Positions 56,279-64,000 of a stretch of DNA of 64,000 nt are shown here, one piece after another. The stretch is from the NCBI GenBank assembly GCA_951828535.1, contig OX639990.1, positions 2,405,300 through 2,469,299 of the forward strand, written 5' to 3'. Origin of the DNA: an uncultured Candidatus Entotheonella sp. GTDB lineage: Bacteria; Tectomicrobia; Entotheonellia; Entotheonellales; Entotheonellaceae. A program made the position numbers and the translations under genes. Position 1 is the first letter of the stretch. The number at the start of each line of letters is the position of its first letter. The notes beneath the pieces were generated by a model. The model did no database searches and was not told the origin of the DNA. It saw nothing but the letters and a program-made list of their open reading frames with translations.

Positions 56279-56320
56279 GGTCCGATTCGTTGATCCATGT
56301 GAAGCAGGGTTGCCCCGTTA

Positions 56321-56355
56321 GACCCTCTCCCTGAGGGAGGGGTTGGGGAGGGGGC
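56321..56355 (+). repeat. CCCTCTCCC...GGGAGGGG repeat hairpin after the helicase
   Basis: CCCTCTCCC (56323-56331) pairs with GGGAGGG (56335-56341), then TTGGGGAGGGGG. The same repeat type as at 40861, placed again just past a gene end, where it may serve as a terminator. Confidence 0.55.
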
Positions 56356-56499
56356 ATCCTGCTCCCTCCCTATGTCAATCATCCCGCACTCATACCCGCC
56401 AGTAATTCTTCGACCCTGGTCGCCACCCCGTACCGAGCCGGCGACTCCCCTACGCTGATGGCGCCGACTGTTACCAACATGAATCTGAGGCTGCGGACT

Positions 56500-56793
56500 G
56501 GTGGCGACGGACGGCACGACGATCAAGATTTGGTGAAGCCGTAGCGTCTGTTCAGCTCAAGAATGGTATGTAGGTACACGTTGGTCTTGCCGGTCCCCGG
56601 TCTCCATCTGCACGGTGAAATCGCCGGAATCCAGGGCGTCGGAGGGAGGTAAGCCGTTGCGGAGTTGGGTAGCCTTCAGGTTGTCGAGGATTTCCGTATC
56701 AAGCGGGGTAAGCCGGCTACCGATGCCGAGGTCGTCTTCGGCAAAGGCGAGTGGCCATTGGGAATTCCCGGCATCTCTCGTAGCGGTGAACTC
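56500..56793 (-). pseudogene. remnant of a type III restriction enzyme Res (helicase) subunit
   Basis: Reading leftward from 56793 the frame gives FAEDDLGIGSRLTPLDTEIL, NLKATQLRNGLPPSDALDSG and FTVQMETG; an extra base at 56595-56598 then shifts it to TGKTNVYLHTILELNRRYGF. A further change near 56525 shifts to LIVVPSVA. This is the Walker A region (METGTGKT) of type III Res subunits. Both ends are missing and two frame breaks are present, so the gene is dead. Confidence 0.75.
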
Positions 56794-56804
56794 GGTGCGT
56801 CACA

Positions 56805-56909
56805 CTTCCTGGCCGCGGAATCGGTAAAGAGTTGGACTTTCTCGGCGAATTCGATCATGTCATTCACGTAGAAACGCCATTCCCGCGGCCCTTGATCGGC
56901 ATCAGACAT
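56805..56909 (-). pseudogene. truncated HepT-like HEPN toxin
   Basis: The first 35 codons after an ATG at 56909 (REWRFYVNDMIEFAEKVQLF) match the start of HepT toxins, then the similarity stops abruptly at the boundary with the Res remnant. The HEPN catalytic Rx4-6H part is absent. It overlaps the mntA stop by 8 bases, the usual gene order. Confidence 0.65.
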
Positions 56910-57192
56910 GAATGGCCTCTCGCTCGATATACGGGCGCAGTTCCGGGCGTAGCGCCTTGTCGGTGACCAGATCAACGGAGAGCCCCGTCAGGTCTTCCAG
57001 GTAGAATTGCACGCCGAAATAGCGCTTGAACGTAGCCGGCCCGTCAAAACGGATCAGAATGTCCATGTCGCTGTCAGATGTGGCCTCATCGCGAGCGGTT
57101 GAGCCGAAAAGCGCGATATCGACAACACCGAAACGCTGCGCCAGGACCGATTTGTGCGCTCTCAGTAGTGTTAAGGCGCGCTCTTTATCCAT
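56902..57192 (-). CDS. mntA: MntA-type minimal nucleotidyltransferase antitoxin
   Basis: 96 aa. The nucleotidyltransferase motif GSTARDEATSDSDMD (residues 30-44, with DxD at 42/44) is complete, and SVDLVTDKALRPELRPYIER follows the family pattern. MntA silences HepT by adding AMP to a Tyr near its HEPN site. Its toxin here is truncated, so the antitoxin is an orphan. Confidence 0.87.
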   Translation of the reverse strand: MDKERALTLLRAHKSVLAQRFGVVDIALFGSTARDEATSDSDMDILIRFDGPATFKRYFGVQFYLEDLTGLSVDLVTDKALRPELRPYIEREAIHV

Positions 57193-57362
57193 CGCTTCGC
57201 CCTTTTCCCGATTTGCCCGGCCCGCCCTGTGTCCAGGCGCCGGGCTTTGCTACCATGCGTCAGTCTGTCGGTCGTCGTTTCCCTGCAAGGCAGCGTCTGT
57301 TGCTGCCTGTCAACGTGTAGCACGACGTGCTTACAGCGGTCAATGCGAAGCAAGGTCGCCGC

Positions 57363-58925
57363 ATGTCACAGATGCTGAAATCCAGCGCCGCCATGGCGGC
57401 CGCCACGATTGCCAGCAGGGTTCTGGGCTTGCTCCGGGAAATGGTCTACGCGCATTTCCTGGGCGCCGGTCCGGTCAAAGGCGCGTTCGACCTCGCCTTC
57501 ATGATTCCCAATCTCTTCCGCCGCCTGCTCGGCGAAGGGGCGCTCACTGCGGCCTTCCTGCCCCTCCTGAAGGACAAAGAGGTGGCGGAGGGCGAGGCGG
57601 CCATGTGGCAGATGGCCAACGCGGTGATCTCCGGCTTCCTGGTGACCGCGCTGGTGGTGATTGCTGGGGTCCTGTTCGGCGTCAGCGGCTATCTGGCGTG
57701 GGCCAATCCGCAGGGCGATGTGCGGCTCATGCTGCAGCTGCTCGTCGTCATGTTCCCGTACATGGGCTGGGTGTGCCTGGCGGCGATTTTCATGGGCATG
57801 CTCAACGCGCGGGGCTTTTTCTTCATCCCCGCCCTGGGCGCCGCGCTGCTGAACGTGGTGATGATCACCGCGGTGCTGGTGTTCGCCCGACGCATGACGG
57901 GCGGCCTGGAGCGGCAGATTTTCGCCCTGGCCTACGGCGTTCTGGTCGCCGGCGTCGCGCAGGCCGCCTACCAGCTTCCGACCCTGTACCGCACGGGCTT
58001 CCGCTATCGTTGGGTAACGCCGTGGCGCCACCCCTCGGTTTGGGTCATTGCGCGCATCATGATACCGGGCACGGTGGGGGTGGCGGCGTTCCAGCTCAAC
58101 ATGCTGGTGACGCAGGGCGTCGCCTTTCTGATCAACCCGGAAATCATCGCCTCGTTCAACTACGCCGTGCGCCTGATGGAGTTCCCGCAGGGCGTGGTGG
58201 GCGTGTCTCTGTTCACCTTCCTGCTGCCAACCCTGTCAGGCCTGGCGGCGGAACAGCGCTTCGACGACTTCAAAGCCACCCTGACGCAGGGGCTGGGCTA
58301 TCTCGTTTATATCAACGCCTTCGCCGCGGCCATGGCCTTCGTGCTGGCCGTGCCGATCGTGCGCCTCATCCTGGAGCGTGGCGCCTTCGATCCTCTGGCG
58401 ACGCAGCGCACGGCCCTGCCGCTGGCCTGCCTCGCCCTCGGCCTGATCGCTTTTTCGTGCGTGGGCAGCCTGACGCGCGCCTTCTACGCCCTCGGCGAGG
58501 TCAGGGTGCCCGTGCGCCTCAGCATTCTTTGCCTGGGCTTGAACCTGGTGTTCGCCCTGATCCTCATCGTTCCCTTTGAACAAGCCGGCTTGGCCACCGC
58601 CAACACCCTCAGCGCCGTGTGCCAGGTGGCGCTGCTGGTGCGCGCCTTGCGCCGCCACATGAATGGCCTTGACCTGCGCCGCCTGCAGCGCGAATGCGGC
58701 TGGATTGCGCTGGCTGCGATCATCTCCGGCGCGGTGGCCTGGGGCGTTCTGGCGTGGTGGGAGCTGCGGTTTGACGCCGGTTCCGTCGGCGTTCGCCTCG
58801 GCGCGGTGTTCGTGCCTATGCTGGCCGCGGGCTTGGTGTATGGGGGCGTTACCTGGTGGATGCCGCTGGCGCCGGTGCGGGACATCGCCGGCATCCTGAG
58901 AGAAAGGTTCGTGCGGCGGCAGTGA
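57363..58925 (+). CDS. murJ: lipid II flippase MurJ
   Basis: 520 aa with about 14 membrane spans. The N-terminal ASRVLGLLREMVYAHFLGAG and FMIPNLFRRLLGEGALTAAF blocks are MurJ signatures, with the conserved Arg residues of the lipid II cavity. It moves lipid II across the inner membrane for peptidoglycan synthesis. ATG at 57363 follows AAGGTCGCCGC; the preceding 12 codons are not family-like. Confidence 0.95.
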   Translation: MSQMLKSSAAMAAATIASRVLGLLREMVYAHFLGAGPVKGAFDLAFMIPNLFRRLLGEGALTAAFLPLLKDKEVAEGEAAMWQMANAVISGFLVTALVVIAGVLFGVSGYLAWANPQGDVRLMLQLLVVMFPYMGWVCLAAIFMGMLNARGFFFIPALGAALLNVVMITAVLVFARRMTGGLERQIFALAYGVLVAGVAQAAYQLPTLYRTGFRYRWVTPWRHPSVWVIARIMIPGTVGVAAFQLNMLVTQGVAFLINPEIIASFNYAVRLMEFPQGVVGVSLFTFLLPTLSGLAAEQRFDDFKATLTQGLGYLVYINAFAAAMAFVLAVPIVRLILERGAFDPLATQRTALPLACLALGLIAFSCVGSLTRAFYALGEVRVPVRLSILCLGLNLVFALILIVPFEQAGLATANTLSAVCQVALLVRALRRHMNGLDLRRLQRECGWIALAAIISGAVAWGVLAWWELRFDAGSVGVRLGAVFVPMLAAGLVYGGVTWWMPLAPVRDIAGILRERFVRRQ

Positions 58926-59040
58926 GCCGGATCATCGCTGCTTGGTGCGCCGGGTATTGGTGCTATGATACGGACTTTATGCAACATCACCGAACCCGCC
59001 GCAGCCGCCTTGCCGCGGCATGACCAGAGGAGGCAGAAGC

Positions 59041-60213
59041 ATGCTTGGCAATTTCTCGGTGCTCTACGCCGGGCACGTCTTGGAGGGAGAGAACATCGGC
59101 TTCAACGGCACGCCGCACGACGACCGCACGTGGGATAATGAGCGGCTGGCCCTGTCATTCAGCATCGCCAAGGACCTGGCCTCGCGCATGGAAGACCTGG
59201 GCTACGACACGCTGTGGATGGCCGAGCATCACTTCCAGCGCGAGGGATACGAAACGATCCCGAATCTGATGATGCTGGGCGTGTGGCTGTCGCAGTTCAC
59301 CCAGCGCCTGAAGTTCGGCTGCGGCTTCAACATCCTGCCGATGTGGCACCCTATCCGGCTGGCCGAGGACTTCGCCATGGCCGACATCCTGACGGGCGGC
59401 CGGGTGATCTTCGGGGTGGGGCGGGGCTATCACACCCGCGAGGTGGAAGCCTTCGGCGCCCCGATGCTCGATGCCGACGCCAATCGCGAGCTGTTCGAGG
59501 AGCAGTTCGAGATCATCATGAAGGCGTTCAATGAGCCGTCGTTTTCGCACCGCGGCAAGCACTACACCCTGCCGCCCGAGGTGCCCTACCGCGGCTACCA
59601 ACTGCAGGACATCACCCTGGTGCCGCGCCCCTTCAATCTGCCGGTTGAGACGTGGCAGCCGATGGTCAGCGGCTCCGAGCGCGGCCTCAACTTCATGGCC
59701 AAACACGGCATCAAGGGGGTGATTCTGGGAACGGCGGCCAAGTATATCGAGGGCTGGATGCAGCGTTTTCAGGACGTCAACGCCCGCCACGGACGAGATT
59801 TGGCGCTGGGTGAGAATCTGGCGCTGGGCCTGTGGTGCTACCTCGATTCGAGCGCCGAGAGCGCCAAGCGGACGCTGGAGCCGATCTTCGAGGAGCACGT
59901 CAAGTTTGCCGCGCCGCTCGGCATGCTGCGCTACAACGAGAAGCAGATGAAGGCCACCGGCCCGGCCGGCGTGGCCACCCACATCGCGGCAGGCAGCAAC
60001 TTCGAAGAGGTCATCAACAACCGCGCCTGGTTCGCCGGCACGCCGCCGGACATGGTCGCCTACCTGCAAGAACTGCAAGAGCGCTATCCCGGCCTGGAGC
60101 ACATCCTCATCGGCTTCCCCATGGGCCTGTCGAACGCCCAGTTCCAGGACCAACTCGCCTGCTTCGCCGAGGCGGTCATGCCGGCTTTCAAGCCAGCAAC
60201 CGTTTCGGTTTGA
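59041..60213 (+). CDS. LLM-class flavin-dependent oxidoreductase
   Basis: 390 aa. Luciferase-like TIM barrel with EDLGYDTLWMAEHHFQREGY and MWHPIRLAEDFAMADILTGG; the substrate pocket regions differ clearly from the LLM gene at 18632. It uses FMNH2 and oxygen on an unknown compound. ATG at 59041 follows GAGGAGGCAG. Downstream is an imperfect GCCCGGCGGC/GCTGCCGGGC stem (60221-60260). Confidence 0.88.
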   Translation: MLGNFSVLYAGHVLEGENIGFNGTPHDDRTWDNERLALSFSIAKDLASRMEDLGYDTLWMAEHHFQREGYETIPNLMMLGVWLSQFTQRLKFGCGFNILPMWHPIRLAEDFAMADILTGGRVIFGVGRGYHTREVEAFGAPMLDADANRELFEEQFEIIMKAFNEPSFSHRGKHYTLPPEVPYRGYQLQDITLVPRPFNLPVETWQPMVSGSERGLNFMAKHGIKGVILGTAAKYIEGWMQRFQDVNARHGRDLALGENLALGLWCYLDSSAESAKRTLEPIFEEHVKFAAPLGMLRYNEKQMKATGPAGVATHIAAGSNFEEVINNRAWFAGTPPDMVAYLQELQERYPGLEHILIGFPMGLSNAQFQDQLACFAEAVMPAFKPATVSV

Positions 60214-60317
60214 TCCTTGGACGCCCGGCGGCGCGGCCTTGCACCGACCGCTGCCGGGCGGCATCCGCCCCTTCCGCTTCTACAAAATCAAGCTTAGCCT
60301 TCGCTTGCTTACAACAT

Positions 60318-60323
60318 TATAAT
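60318..60323 (+). promoter_or_regulatory. -10 element of a possibly leaderless promoter
   Basis: A perfect TATAAT ends 7 bases before the ATG of the nucleotidyltransferase-like gene. Transcription from it would begin at or next to the ATG. No convincing -35 is visible. Confidence 0.4.
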
Positions 60324-60330
60324 TGTATAT

Positions 60331-60816
60331 ATGATACCGGCGTTTATCACCGTAAACGGTTCCCCTTGGGAAGTCCTGCCACCGGGGATACACCAAGCCA
60401 CACTTGACGAGATTGAGAAACGATTTGCAACGAACACATGGCGATACGAACTGTTCAATGGATTGGTCGACGCTGCCAACAGGCTACGTTTTGCCGGTTG
60501 CAGTTGCAAATGGATCTATTTGAATGGAAGTTACGTCACGAGGAAACCCCAGCCTGGCGACTTCGACGCGTGCTGGGACCCAGCGGGCACCGATCCGGAC
60601 AAACTTGATCCTGTCTTTTTCGATTTCAGAAACAGACGTGCCGCGCAAAAGGCAATGTTCAACGGCGAGTTTTTCCCATCCACGTCGATCAGCAACGACG
60701 TGGGTCAGACCTTCGTCGAGTTCTTTCAACTCGATCGCTTTACCGGCGGAAAAAAGGGGATTGTTTCCGTTTTTCTCCCAGCAGACCCTCTTCTTCAGCG
60801 AAAGGCAGATTCATGA
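60331..60816 (+). CDS. DUF6932-like minimal nucleotidyltransferase
   Basis: 161 aa. YLNGSYVTRKPQPGDFDACW contains the nucleotidyltransferase pattern GS (66-67) followed by DFD (77-79), as in the DUF6932 family and other MNT proteins. No ribosome site is seen. Sequence composition is clearly A+T-richer than the flanking genes. The stop overlaps the next ATG as ATGA, so it is coupled to an XRE regulator. Probably a toxin or antitoxin enzyme that modifies RNA or protein with a nucleotide; target unknown. Confidence 0.72.
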   Translation: MIPAFITVNGSPWEVLPPGIHQATLDEIEKRFATNTWRYELFNGLVDAANRLRFAGCSCKWIYLNGSYVTRKPQPGDFDACWDPAGTDPDKLDPVFFDFRNRRAAQKAMFNGEFFPSTSISNDVGQTFVEFFQLDRFTGGKKGIVSVFLPADPLLQRKADS

Positions 60817-61271
60817 TTCTCAGCGACAAGCAGATGCACGTCTCGAGAACAGCCCTCGCAAAGCTCGAATCAGCTCTTGGCGCCCTAAGAAGCCAATCCG
60901 ACAGCCCTGAATGGGTAAGAAAAATGGAAATCGATGCCCTTGAAAGCCAAATCGAGGACATCCGGGCAGACATGATACGGTACGAAAACCTGCGTGCCGG
61001 ACGGGTCGACTTCCCGGACTCCTGCTCGCTCGAAGAACTGCCGACCCGATTGATCGAAATCCGAATCGCCAGCCATTTGACCCAGACCGATCTCGCCGGA
61101 AAACTTGGTTTGAAGCCACAGCAGATACAGCGTTACGAAGCTTCCCATTACAGTGGAGCAAACCTTGCTAGATTGACCAACGTTGCAAAGGCCCTCCTTC
61201 ACGACAAGGAAATGCCGGTCAAACTGGGCGATCTGGAAAGAAGAAATGAAATAAACCCCTCACCAAAATGA
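60813..61271 (+). CDS. XRE-family regulator with N-terminal helical region
   Basis: 152 aa. Residues 1-75 are helical and charged (KLESALGALRSQSDSPEWVR). The helix-turn-helix lies near 80-135: RLIEIRIASHLTQTDLAGKL and QQIQRYEASHYSG. It overlaps the nucleotidyltransferase gene by 4 bases. It likely acts as antitoxin and repressor of the unit. Confidence 0.8.
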   Translation: MILSDKQMHVSRTALAKLESALGALRSQSDSPEWVRKMEIDALESQIEDIRADMIRYENLRAGRVDFPDSCSLEELPTRLIEIRIASHLTQTDLAGKLGLKPQQIQRYEASHYSGANLARLTNVAKALLHDKEMPVKLGDLERRNEINPSPK

Positions 61272-61295
61272 GGCCCTTGACTTGTCACAAAACAG

Positions 61296-62111
61296 ATGGC
61301 CAAGAAAGCTCAGCGACGTCACGACCCCTACGAGACGGTTTCAAGAGCAGAATGCGAATACCCCGATCTCCCCTGTCATTCGCAGCCGAGACCTTCACTG
61401 GAAGCCAGAACGTGCTTTGAACCTTATGAGGAATGCCCGTTGAATTCGGAAACCGCCCTGAAGCAGGCCCTGGCCCGATCCTCAGTCATACCGGAACAGA
61501 TCGCCACGCTCGTGAATAATCCTGGGCTTTTCTTTCCCGATCTGCCAGACAACCAGCGAACCCAGATCGCCTCCGCCTTGTTCCACCTGACGATCAAACA
61601 GGCGTGGAGCGTTACCTTCCTGTTCCAGAACGGACATTATGAGGCAGGCTTGGCCCTGGCACGCTCGGTCCTCGAAGCCTTCTGCAGGGGAAAATGGATC
61701 AAATACCATGCAAAGACAGGAGCCATTGAAAGCTTCTCATCCAACAAGTTCCCCGATATGTCTTATCTCATCAAGAAAACACTGAGTTGCGTTCTTGATC
61801 CTGACGGGCAAGCGGATGAGTTTTTCTCAACAGTCTACCGGCGCCTGAGCGAATACGCACATGGCGGGGTTCACATGTTCGAGATGCAATTGTCCGAGAC
61901 CGGCATTGCCTCAGAATACAACTTGGAAGAACTGAGAGATGTTCTGAAGATTTCAGATGTCATGCAGCTACAAGCAGCTACCGAACTACTCGACTTCACT
62001 CGTTGCAAAGACGATGACTACTGCCGAACATTGAAAGAAGAACACACTCAGTGCAAACGGTTTCAAGCCGATCTTGGAAGAATAATGGACCTTGTTCAAG
62101 AAATTGTCTGA
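61296..62111 (+). CDS. HEPN-like DUF5677/DUF6988-type protein
   Basis: 271 aa. The block ALFHLTIKQAW and ARSVLEAFCRGKWIKY (122-137) match the DUF5677/DUF6988 type of all-helical proteins. RLSEYAH (R183 to H189) fits the Rx4-6H motif of HEPN ribonucleases. It begins 24 bases after the XRE gene, on the same strand and in the same A+T-richer segment. A role as an RNase effector is inference. Confidence 0.65.
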   Translation: MAKKAQRRHDPYETVSRAECEYPDLPCHSQPRPSLEARTCFEPYEECPLNSETALKQALARSSVIPEQIATLVNNPGLFFPDLPDNQRTQIASALFHLTIKQAWSVTFLFQNGHYEAGLALARSVLEAFCRGKWIKYHAKTGAIESFSSNKFPDMSYLIKKTLSCVLDPDGQADEFFSTVYRRLSEYAHGGVHMFEMQLSETGIASEYNLEELRDVLKISDVMQLQAATELLDFTRCKDDDYCRTLKEEHTQCKRFQADLGRIMDLVQEIV

Positions 62112-62299
62112 CCGGCCGGCATAACCTTGCTTCCGGCTCAAGAAGTTACTCATCCCATCGCCACTCTCACAGCTCGACAAAGTTGCTGGCCCAGATACCA
62201 CGCTAGCCTACCGTGCTACGGTTTCCTGTGTAACGCACCTGACGCCGGTAGGCCAGGGCATGCTCACGTTTCGTCCAACCAGTTGTTCAGAGCCATCCG

Positions 62300-63532
62300 T
62301 CACGCGCCGTCCGCCTCCAGGATGGCGTGCAGCAGCACGTCGCAGCCGGCGGCGGTGTGCTCCGGGGTCGCGTCTTCGATCTCGTTGTGGCTGATGCCGT
62401 CCTTGCAGGGGATGAAAATCATCGCCGCCGGGCACACGTTGGCTACGTACTTGGCGTCGTGACCGGCGCCGCTGATCACGTCCATGTGCGTCAGGTCCAG
62501 GTTTTGGGCGGCACGGCGGACGGCGGCGACGCTGCCGGCGTCAAAGGGCGTCGGCGGCGCGTACCAGATTTCATCAAGCGCGGCGGTCAGCCCCATGGCC
62601 GTCTCGACCTCCGCCACGGCTTCCCGCAGGGCATTGGCCATGGCTGCCAGGGCCGCGTCGTCGGGGTGCCGCAGATCGACCGTGAAATTTACCCGTCCGG
62701 GTATGACGTTGCGCGAGTTGGGGTGTACCCGCAGGTCGCCAACCGTGCCGACGCCATGCGGCGCCTGCGCCAGGGCGGCCTGTTGCACGGCGGTGACGAT
62801 CTGCGCGGCGCCGCACAGGGCGTCGCGCCGCCGCGGCATGGGGGTCGTGCCGGCGTGCGATTCCATCCCTTCGATCGTGCAGTCGAACCAGCGCTGTCCT
62901 TGCAGTCCCTGCACCACGCCGATGATGCACTCGTTCGCTTCCAGCAGCGGCCCCTGCTCGATATGCGCCTCGAAGAAGGTGTGTACCGGCTGGCCGCCGC
63001 AGGGCCGCGTGCCGGCGTAGCCGATGCGGTCCAGTTCCTGGGCCACGGTGACGCCGTCGTGGTCGGCCCGCGTCAGGCCGTATTCGAGGCTGAACTCGCC
63101 GCCAAACACGCCTGAGGCCAGCATGGCGGGGGCGAAGCGGCAGCCCTCCTCGTTCGTCCACGCCACCACCTCCACGGGGCGTCGCGTGGTGTGGTTGGCG
63201 TCGTTGAGGGTGCGGATGACCTCCAGGCCGGCGAGCACCCCATAGGCGCCGTCGAACTTGCCGCCGGTGGGCTGGGTATCGAGGTGGCTGCCGGTCATCA
63301 CGGGCGCCAGGGTCGGATCGGAGCCGGCGCGGCGGACAAAGATGTTGCCCATTTGGTCCACCTCGACCGTGCAGCCGGCCTCGTGTGCCCAGCGCACGAA
63401 CAGGTCCCGGCCCTCGCGGTCCACGTCGCTCAGGGCCACGCGGCAGACGCCGCCGCGCGGCGTTTCGCCAATGCGAGCCAGGGTCATCAGCGACTCCCAC
63501 AAGCGCGCGCCGTTAATCCTCAGGTCAGCCAT
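62300..63532 (-). CDS. M20-family amidohydrolase (N-carbamoyl-L-amino-acid hydrolase/allantoate type)
   Basis: 410 aa. Metal ligands are visible in GSHLDTQPTGGKFDG and TNEEGCRFAPAM (Glu pair), and the second half has EAHIEQGP and a late HNEIED motif. The family cleaves N-carbamoyl or ureido amides in nitrogen catabolism. No hydantoinase or allantoinase gene is adjacent. A 188-base gap before it holds nothing recognised. Confidence 0.9.
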   Translation of the reverse strand: MADLRINGARLWESLMTLARIGETPRGGVCRVALSDVDREGRDLFVRWAHEAGCTVEVDQMGNIFVRRAGSDPTLAPVMTGSHLDTQPTGGKFDGAYGVLAGLEVIRTLNDANHTTRRPVEVVAWTNEEGCRFAPAMLASGVFGGEFSLEYGLTRADHDGVTVAQELDRIGYAGTRPCGGQPVHTFFEAHIEQGPLLEANECIIGVVQGLQGQRWFDCTIEGMESHAGTTPMPRRRDALCGAAQIVTAVQQAALAQAPHGVGTVGDLRVHPNSRNVIPGRVNFTVDLRHPDDAALAAMANALREAVAEVETAMGLTAALDEIWYAPPTPFDAGSVAAVRRAAQNLDLTHMDVISGAGHDAKYVANVCPAAMIFIPCKDGISHNEIEDATPEHTAAGCDVLLHAILEADGA

Positions 63533-64000
63533 GTTGCTTCCTTTCTTCAGTACGGGCTATCACGTGTCAGCCAGAAGGCGTATCATCAGATGGGCGGTCG
63601 TATCATCAGCGCTGCCGTGGCTAGGGGTTGTGATTGGGAATGCTCTTGGTATTCCAAGATATGCCACGTATGGCATTTGCAGGAACTAGAAGGACTCAAA
63701 TGGTACGGAGGCCAGAAATGTTCGCTACCCTTGTTGGTACTAACACAACCTCCACCGCGTACGAAGCACTGTTCACAAGCCTCTATGATATTGCATGTGT
63801 CTACGGATTCGAACCACCTGATATCGAACTACGGGTGAAGCCGAACTAGCAAATATCACTTCATGGGTGGACCCTTGAACAAAAAGGGCCTCGTGACAAG
63901 AACTCAGATTTTTTCCTTGCCGTGACAGCCCCGGAGGTGCCAAGTATATCGCCCATCCCTGTAATGAAAACCATAGACGGGCCTCTATTTGCAGTTGTGG
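63533..64000. other. largely unassigned right end
   Basis: A+T-richer sequence beyond the amidohydrolase start. It holds a small CTTGG-TATT-CCAAG palindrome (63644-63657) and a short reading frame listed separately. After that frame stops at 63849 the same frame stays open to the window edge. Confidence 0.4.
63700..63849 (+). CDS. small hypothetical protein, uncertain
   Basis: 49 aa. AAGGA lies 5 bases before the ATG at 63700, and the sequence (EALFTSLYDIACVYGFEPPD) reads like a helical protein. After its TAG the same frame continues open and protein-like (NSDFFLAVTAPEVPSISPIP), so the two parts may belong to one decayed or interrupted gene. No homologue recognised. Confidence 0.35.
   Translation: MVRRPEMFATLVGTNTTSTAYEALFTSLYDIACVYGFEPPDIELRVKPN

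Follow-up and report, generated by a model that had tools for sequence, protein, structure and literature searches.

The segment and its surroundings

Three intact open reading frames lie in a row on the + strand of a 64,000-nucleotide stretch of DNA from an uncultured Candidatus Entotheonella sp. (the window, with positions counted from its first nucleotide). Gene 1 (60331-60816) encodes a 161-residue protein of the DUF6932 family (Pfam PF22014, 1.3e-33) that resembles nucleotidyltransferases (NTases) and carries a GS-x9-DFD motif. Gene 2 (60813-61271), which overlaps gene 1 by an ATGA and belongs to the same operon, encodes a 152-residue XRE regulator (HTH_3, 2e-9), and gene 3 (61296-62111) encodes a protein of 271 residues as called, which matches both DUF6988 (PF22491, 1.1e-12) and DUF5677 (2.8e-6). 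An operator-like palindrome on the same strand (60309-60328) ends 2 nt before gene 1. The composition of the three genes is similar and foreign, with a GC content of ~52% for the segment vs ~64% in its flanks and a third-position GC of 57-58% vs 88% in the flanking genes. The frames, their composition, the overlap and the family assignments had all been pointed out in an earlier note on this DNA and hold up on closer analysis; its further proposal, that the three genes are coupled and make up one new NTase-XRE-HEPN system, fared less well, as discussed below. In PADLOC, genes 1 and 3 fall into two separate candidate families (PDC-M63A, 3.6e-8, and PDC-S52, 1.4e-13, respectively).

The segment occupies a variable slot (60266-62188). 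The DNA on either side (57215-60265 and 62189-63545) is 91% identical to that of a sister genome of the same genus, G002, and the enclosed segment is unrelated. In its place, G002 carries a DUF433-DUF5615 pair (L077:8662-9335) with the same genes on either side. PIN-DUF433 (COG2442) pairs are predicted toxin-antitoxin (TA) modules (PMC2701414), and the DUF5615 protein in the G002 slot shows a weak PIN-like match, which suggests a TA-like pair; from this comparison, the slot appears to be a spot at which TA-like modules are exchanged. Such exchange backs the earlier note's sense of a TA- or defence-like setting, but not the single three-gene system that it saw as the content of that setting.

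The note had also placed decayed restriction and MntA-HepT genes nearby, a description that stands in part. On the - strand at 56280-57192 we observed an MntA-like gene (56902-57192) that is intact, with 96 aa and a match to PADLOC PDC-S09 (4.7e-29), followed by what looks like a broken HepT-like start and frame-shifted type III restriction-like pieces (GTGKT...LNRRYGF, IVVPSVA). The decayed pieces were recognized by eye only, and neither the broken HepT frame nor the type III restriction frames gave a match in Pfam.

PD-lambda-2-like operons that begin with DUF6932

The protein encoded by gene 1 likely has an NTase fold. G66, S67, D77 and D79 are invariant among 18 proteins in an alignment of its family, and in a structural comparison of its AlphaFold model (pLDDT 87.6) with VIA-align, NTases came out on top, MNT antitoxins and AadA among them, although the Z scores were modest (5.1 and below). 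The combination of a GS-x(n)-D-x-D motif with an NTase fold that marks the NTase superfamily is thus found in gene 1, at a modest structural Z. Foldseek by itself returned no significant match for the model, nor did the gene 1 profile find a meaningful match among solved structures. Any enzymatic role for the protein is putative.

Among genomes sampled at one per species, relatives of gene 1 turned up at 28 loci in several phyla, and in all 28 of them the downstream neighbor is homologous to gene 2. In 27, that neighbor is a much longer protein of 420-460 aa, in which the part matching gene 2 is followed by a C-terminal domain. This domain matched Peptidase_M78 (ImmA/IrrE) in five of the six long homologues tested, and all the long XRE proteins that accompany DUF6932 carry HExxH. 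The full arrangement, DUF6932 followed by the long XRE protein and then by a Beta_protein gene, is found in 26/28 loci. The XRE-peptidase partners tested match PADLOC PD-Lambda-2_B (mostly 1e-77 to 1e-88) and the Beta_protein partners tested match PD-Lambda-2_C (1e-33 to 1e-50), with strong matches in nearly all cases for both.

PD-lambda-2 was found in E. coli by functional selection (Vassallo et al., 2022; PMC9519451). It consists of a HigB-like protein A, an Xre-peptidase B and a P4-antitoxin-like protein C; B is toxic and is neutralized by A, and C is required for defence (PMC9519451). The relatives of gene 1 share its plan of a small first gene, an XRE-ImmA/IrrE peptidase and a Beta_protein, and differ from it in that the first gene is NTase-like rather than HigB-like. 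Given the matches of their partners to PD-Lambda-2_B and PD-Lambda-2_C, these loci are, by homology and gene content, PD-lambda-2-like defence operons headed by DUF6932 rather than by a HigB-like gene.

We regard this link as a more interesting result than the three genes of the window. DUF6932 is an unnamed family of which we found no mention in the literature searched, and it is now tied to PD-lambda-2 by operons in which an NTase-like gene, and not HigB, precedes an XRE-peptidase and a Beta_protein shared with that system. These operons allow one to ask if the second component is kept in check by the first, whatever fold the first has.

Some of these loci lie on mobile DNA. A complete DUF6932-XRE-peptidase-Beta operon on an IMG/VR viral contig (L080:3884-6760) directly follows a gene for a 528-aa protein that by eye resembles a phage-type protease. 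On the Acinetobacter pittii plasmid pNDM-AP_882 (L059:1856-7978), a DUF6932-XRE-peptidase operon comes directly after Tn7-like tnsD/tnsE genes, and its Beta gene seems to have been shortened (66 aa annotated) by an IS30-family element adjoining the blaNDM-1 region. On another IMG/VR contig (L081:1875-3361), a DUF6932-like protein overlaps a 319-aa partner that does not resemble XRE, possibly a further type of DUF6932 operon.

A shortened copy behind a conserved operator-like palindrome

The copy in the window is a shortened one. Gene 2 is homologous to the N-terminal third of the PD-lambda-2_B-like XRE-peptidases and ends after the HTH, at 152 aa; we found no remnant of a peptidase domain or a Beta gene in the window, and gene 1 has no match to the HigB-like PD-Lambda-2_A of PADLOC up to an E value of 5. 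The window therefore lacks all three features that define PD-lambda-2, namely the HigB-like first gene, the XRE-ImmA/IrrE fusion and the Beta_protein in third place. The copy retains the order of the genes, their ATGA overlap, the HTH and the greater part of the operator.

Short forms are also found elsewhere, as free-standing two-gene modules of DUF6932 and a short XRE gene on plasmids of the cyanobacteria Oscillatoria, Aulosira, Tolypothrix and Calothrix, and in a genome from the same family as that of the window (G003). The window pair is not one of these. Its gene 1 shares 62-70% identity with members of the main three-gene clade, against no more than 53% with the two-gene forms; in our trees the window copy falls among the three-gene loci, and a topology that joins it to the two-gene forms was rejected (p-AU 1.3e-5 or lower). 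Since it lies inside the three-gene clade, the likeliest account of its short state is a derived loss of the peptidase domain and Beta gene, and the tree indicates that short forms had more than one origin. No near-identical copies of the window genes exist by which selection on them could be gauged. The recurrent peptidase-less forms represent natural minimal versions of the operon.

The palindrome ties the window copy to its relatives at the level of DNA. The family consensus, TTACAACATTATTGTTGTAA, is found at one fixed position just before gene 1 in most three-gene loci and is exact in 15 of them; several more distant members, whether short or long, have a variant in front of them, ACACAAC-N6-GTTGTGT. 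The window version, TTACAACATTATAATTGTAT, agrees with the consensus at 17 of 20 bases; its left arm is intact and the 3 mismatches leave the right arm degenerate. It is the sole site with ≤3 mismatches in the window, where 0 are expected, and likewise in the genome of 3.6 Mb. The palindrome can serve as a DNA marker for DUF6932-type operons. Nine exact matches in viral contigs were set aside as chance, as none adjoins a DUF6932 gene and the contigs are AT-rich.

The palindrome also overlaps a -10-like hexamer, TATAAT (60318-60323), at a position that would suit a leaderless start at 60331. Two of the operator changes in the window turn the TATTGT of the relatives into this perfect -10 hexamer. 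Together with the degenerate right arm, this suggests that the window genes may be expressed more strongly, and repressed less, than those of the relatives.

On balance, we favor the reading that genes 1 and 2 descend, by shortening, from a PD-lambda-2-like, TA-derived defence operon and that gene 3 is separate. The window, in other words, holds a shortened variant of a known operon type and not a new three-gene system. The ancestor would have carried DUF6932, the XRE-ImmA/IrrE peptidase and the Beta_protein behind the palindromic operator; of these, the peptidase domain and Beta gene would then have disappeared in the lineage of the window. Because the palindrome lies across the -10 region and right next to the start codon, an XRE protein bound there would repress its own operon, and we propose that the gene 2 protein does so; genes 1 and 2 are thus probably an autoregulated DUF6932-XRE module. 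The NTase-fold protein would be the TA partner of the XRE protein, either as a toxin with XRE as its antitoxin, by analogy to other NTase/HTH pairs, or as a first protein that tames the second, by analogy to E. coli PD-lambda-2. With the peptidase and the Beta protein absent, abortive defence of the PD-lambda-2 type has probably been lost from the window copy, and the remainder would be a two-gene TA-like module of a kind that also arose elsewhere.

As in type II-like TA systems, genes 1 and 2 are small and overlapping, have a palindrome at their promoter, and belong to a family with a patchy, mobile distribution (plasmid copies, viral-contig copies and slot exchange). The Xress-MNTss system of Streptococcus suis (PMC8406773) and AbiE likewise pair an NTase-like protein with a DNA-binding partner in one operon, and autoregulation is established for them, whereas for genes 1 and 2 both autoregulation and the TA role are putative. 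DUF6932 is furthermore another family, the NTase gene in the window comes first and overlaps by ATGA, and the window XRE protein derives from an XRE-peptidase.

Some findings count against the favored reading. The structural resemblance of gene 1 to NTases is modest, with a best Z of 5.1, and the long branch of the window copy (0.74 in the combined tree) and the degenerate right arm of the palindrome would also fit plain decay. Genes 1 and 2 would then be a non-functional leftover of a PD-lambda-2-like operon next to an unrelated gene 3, an explanation with which the loss of the peptidase and the Beta gene, the long branch of gene 2, the weakened operator and the decayed defence-like genes 3-4 kb away all agree. 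We consider it improbable, however, as both genes are intact reading frames that retain G66, S67, D77, D79, the HTH motif and the ATGA overlap, and as two-gene forms are stable in other lineages.

Gene 3 as a probable independent neighbor

If genes 1 and 2 are a remodeled operon, it must be asked whether gene 3 belongs to it. The earlier note had proposed a neighborhood survey of DUF6932-XRE-DUF5677 triads as a check on its three-gene system, to be refuted if the third gene did not accompany the first two, and the survey with this outcome speaks against the coupling: DUF6988 is present at 0/43 other DUF6932 loci (a few of these with only ~1.5 kb of flank), and DUF6932 is present at none of the six DUF6988 plasmid loci seen. 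The start of gene 3 is also in question. The ATG at 61296 has no ribosome-binding site, and a TTG at 61440 has GAGGA 7 nt upstream and yields a protein of 223 aa, near the length of its relatives; translation probably starts at this TTG, which makes the 24-bp gap to gene 2 doubtful.

The motif on which the HEPN assignment of gene 3 rested, Rx5H, survives by half. H189 is invariant in the DUF6988 family, as are R123, E127, R131, Y187 and G191, among others, but R183 is not conserved, position 183 being P or A in most relatives and position 182 being R, K or S. We therefore rejected R183/H189 as a HEPN active site. Neither Pfam nor a profile search of solved structures gave a HEPN match for gene 3, or, in the latter case, any meaningful match, and a single-sequence model predicts a helical protein at a pLDDT of 38, unusable for the fold.

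These results bear on the idea that the NTase, the XRE protein and a HEPN-like protein act jointly, the NTase modifying a HEPN RNase as MntA does HepT. MntA-HepT offers a precedent (PMC7641770), gene 3 is predicted to be helical, and gene 1 has the GS...DxD motif and a modest structural resemblance to NTases that include MNT antitoxins among the best matches. In the DUF6932 operons, however, the partner of the NTase-like protein is an XRE protein rather than a conserved HEPN protein, and the R-x4-6-H motif of HepT is not conserved in the family of gene 3. With no co-occurrence of gene 3 and DUF6932, and with the operons of the relatives accounting for genes 1 and 2 without gene 3, we find a joint system of this kind very hard to credit.

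Another possibility is that the DUF6988 gene replaced the peptidase and Beta_protein, so that the old XRE operator now controls a rewired operon with DUF6988 as its effector. Gene 3 occupies the exact place of the lost peptidase and Beta gene, lies on the same strand as gene 2 with no terminator-like or + strand promoter-like site between, shares the foreign composition of the other two intact frames, and itself belongs to a PADLOC candidate defence family. Against this, the pairing has been seen once, in none of the other loci surveyed, and the likely TTG start would leave a gap of ~170 nt and give gene 3 its own ribosome-binding site. Such a swap strikes us as unlikely, and the best reading of gene 3 is that of an independent neighbor.

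We suggest that gene 3 is a candidate for single-gene defence, distinct from genes 1 and 2, that arrived in the same exchange slot. It is a member of DUF6988/PDC-S52, a candidate single-gene defence family, by its matches to both models (that to PF22491 being above the cut-off of the model) and by the invariant R/E/R and Y-x-HGG residues, although it is a divergent one. No member of its family was found in 385 other genomes, in phages or in viral contigs, and the relatives found are distant plasmid members, 23-25% identical to gene 3. On those plasmids the DUF6988 genes stand alone, adjoin an AAA ATPase or a UvrD helicase gene, or lie near DRT2.
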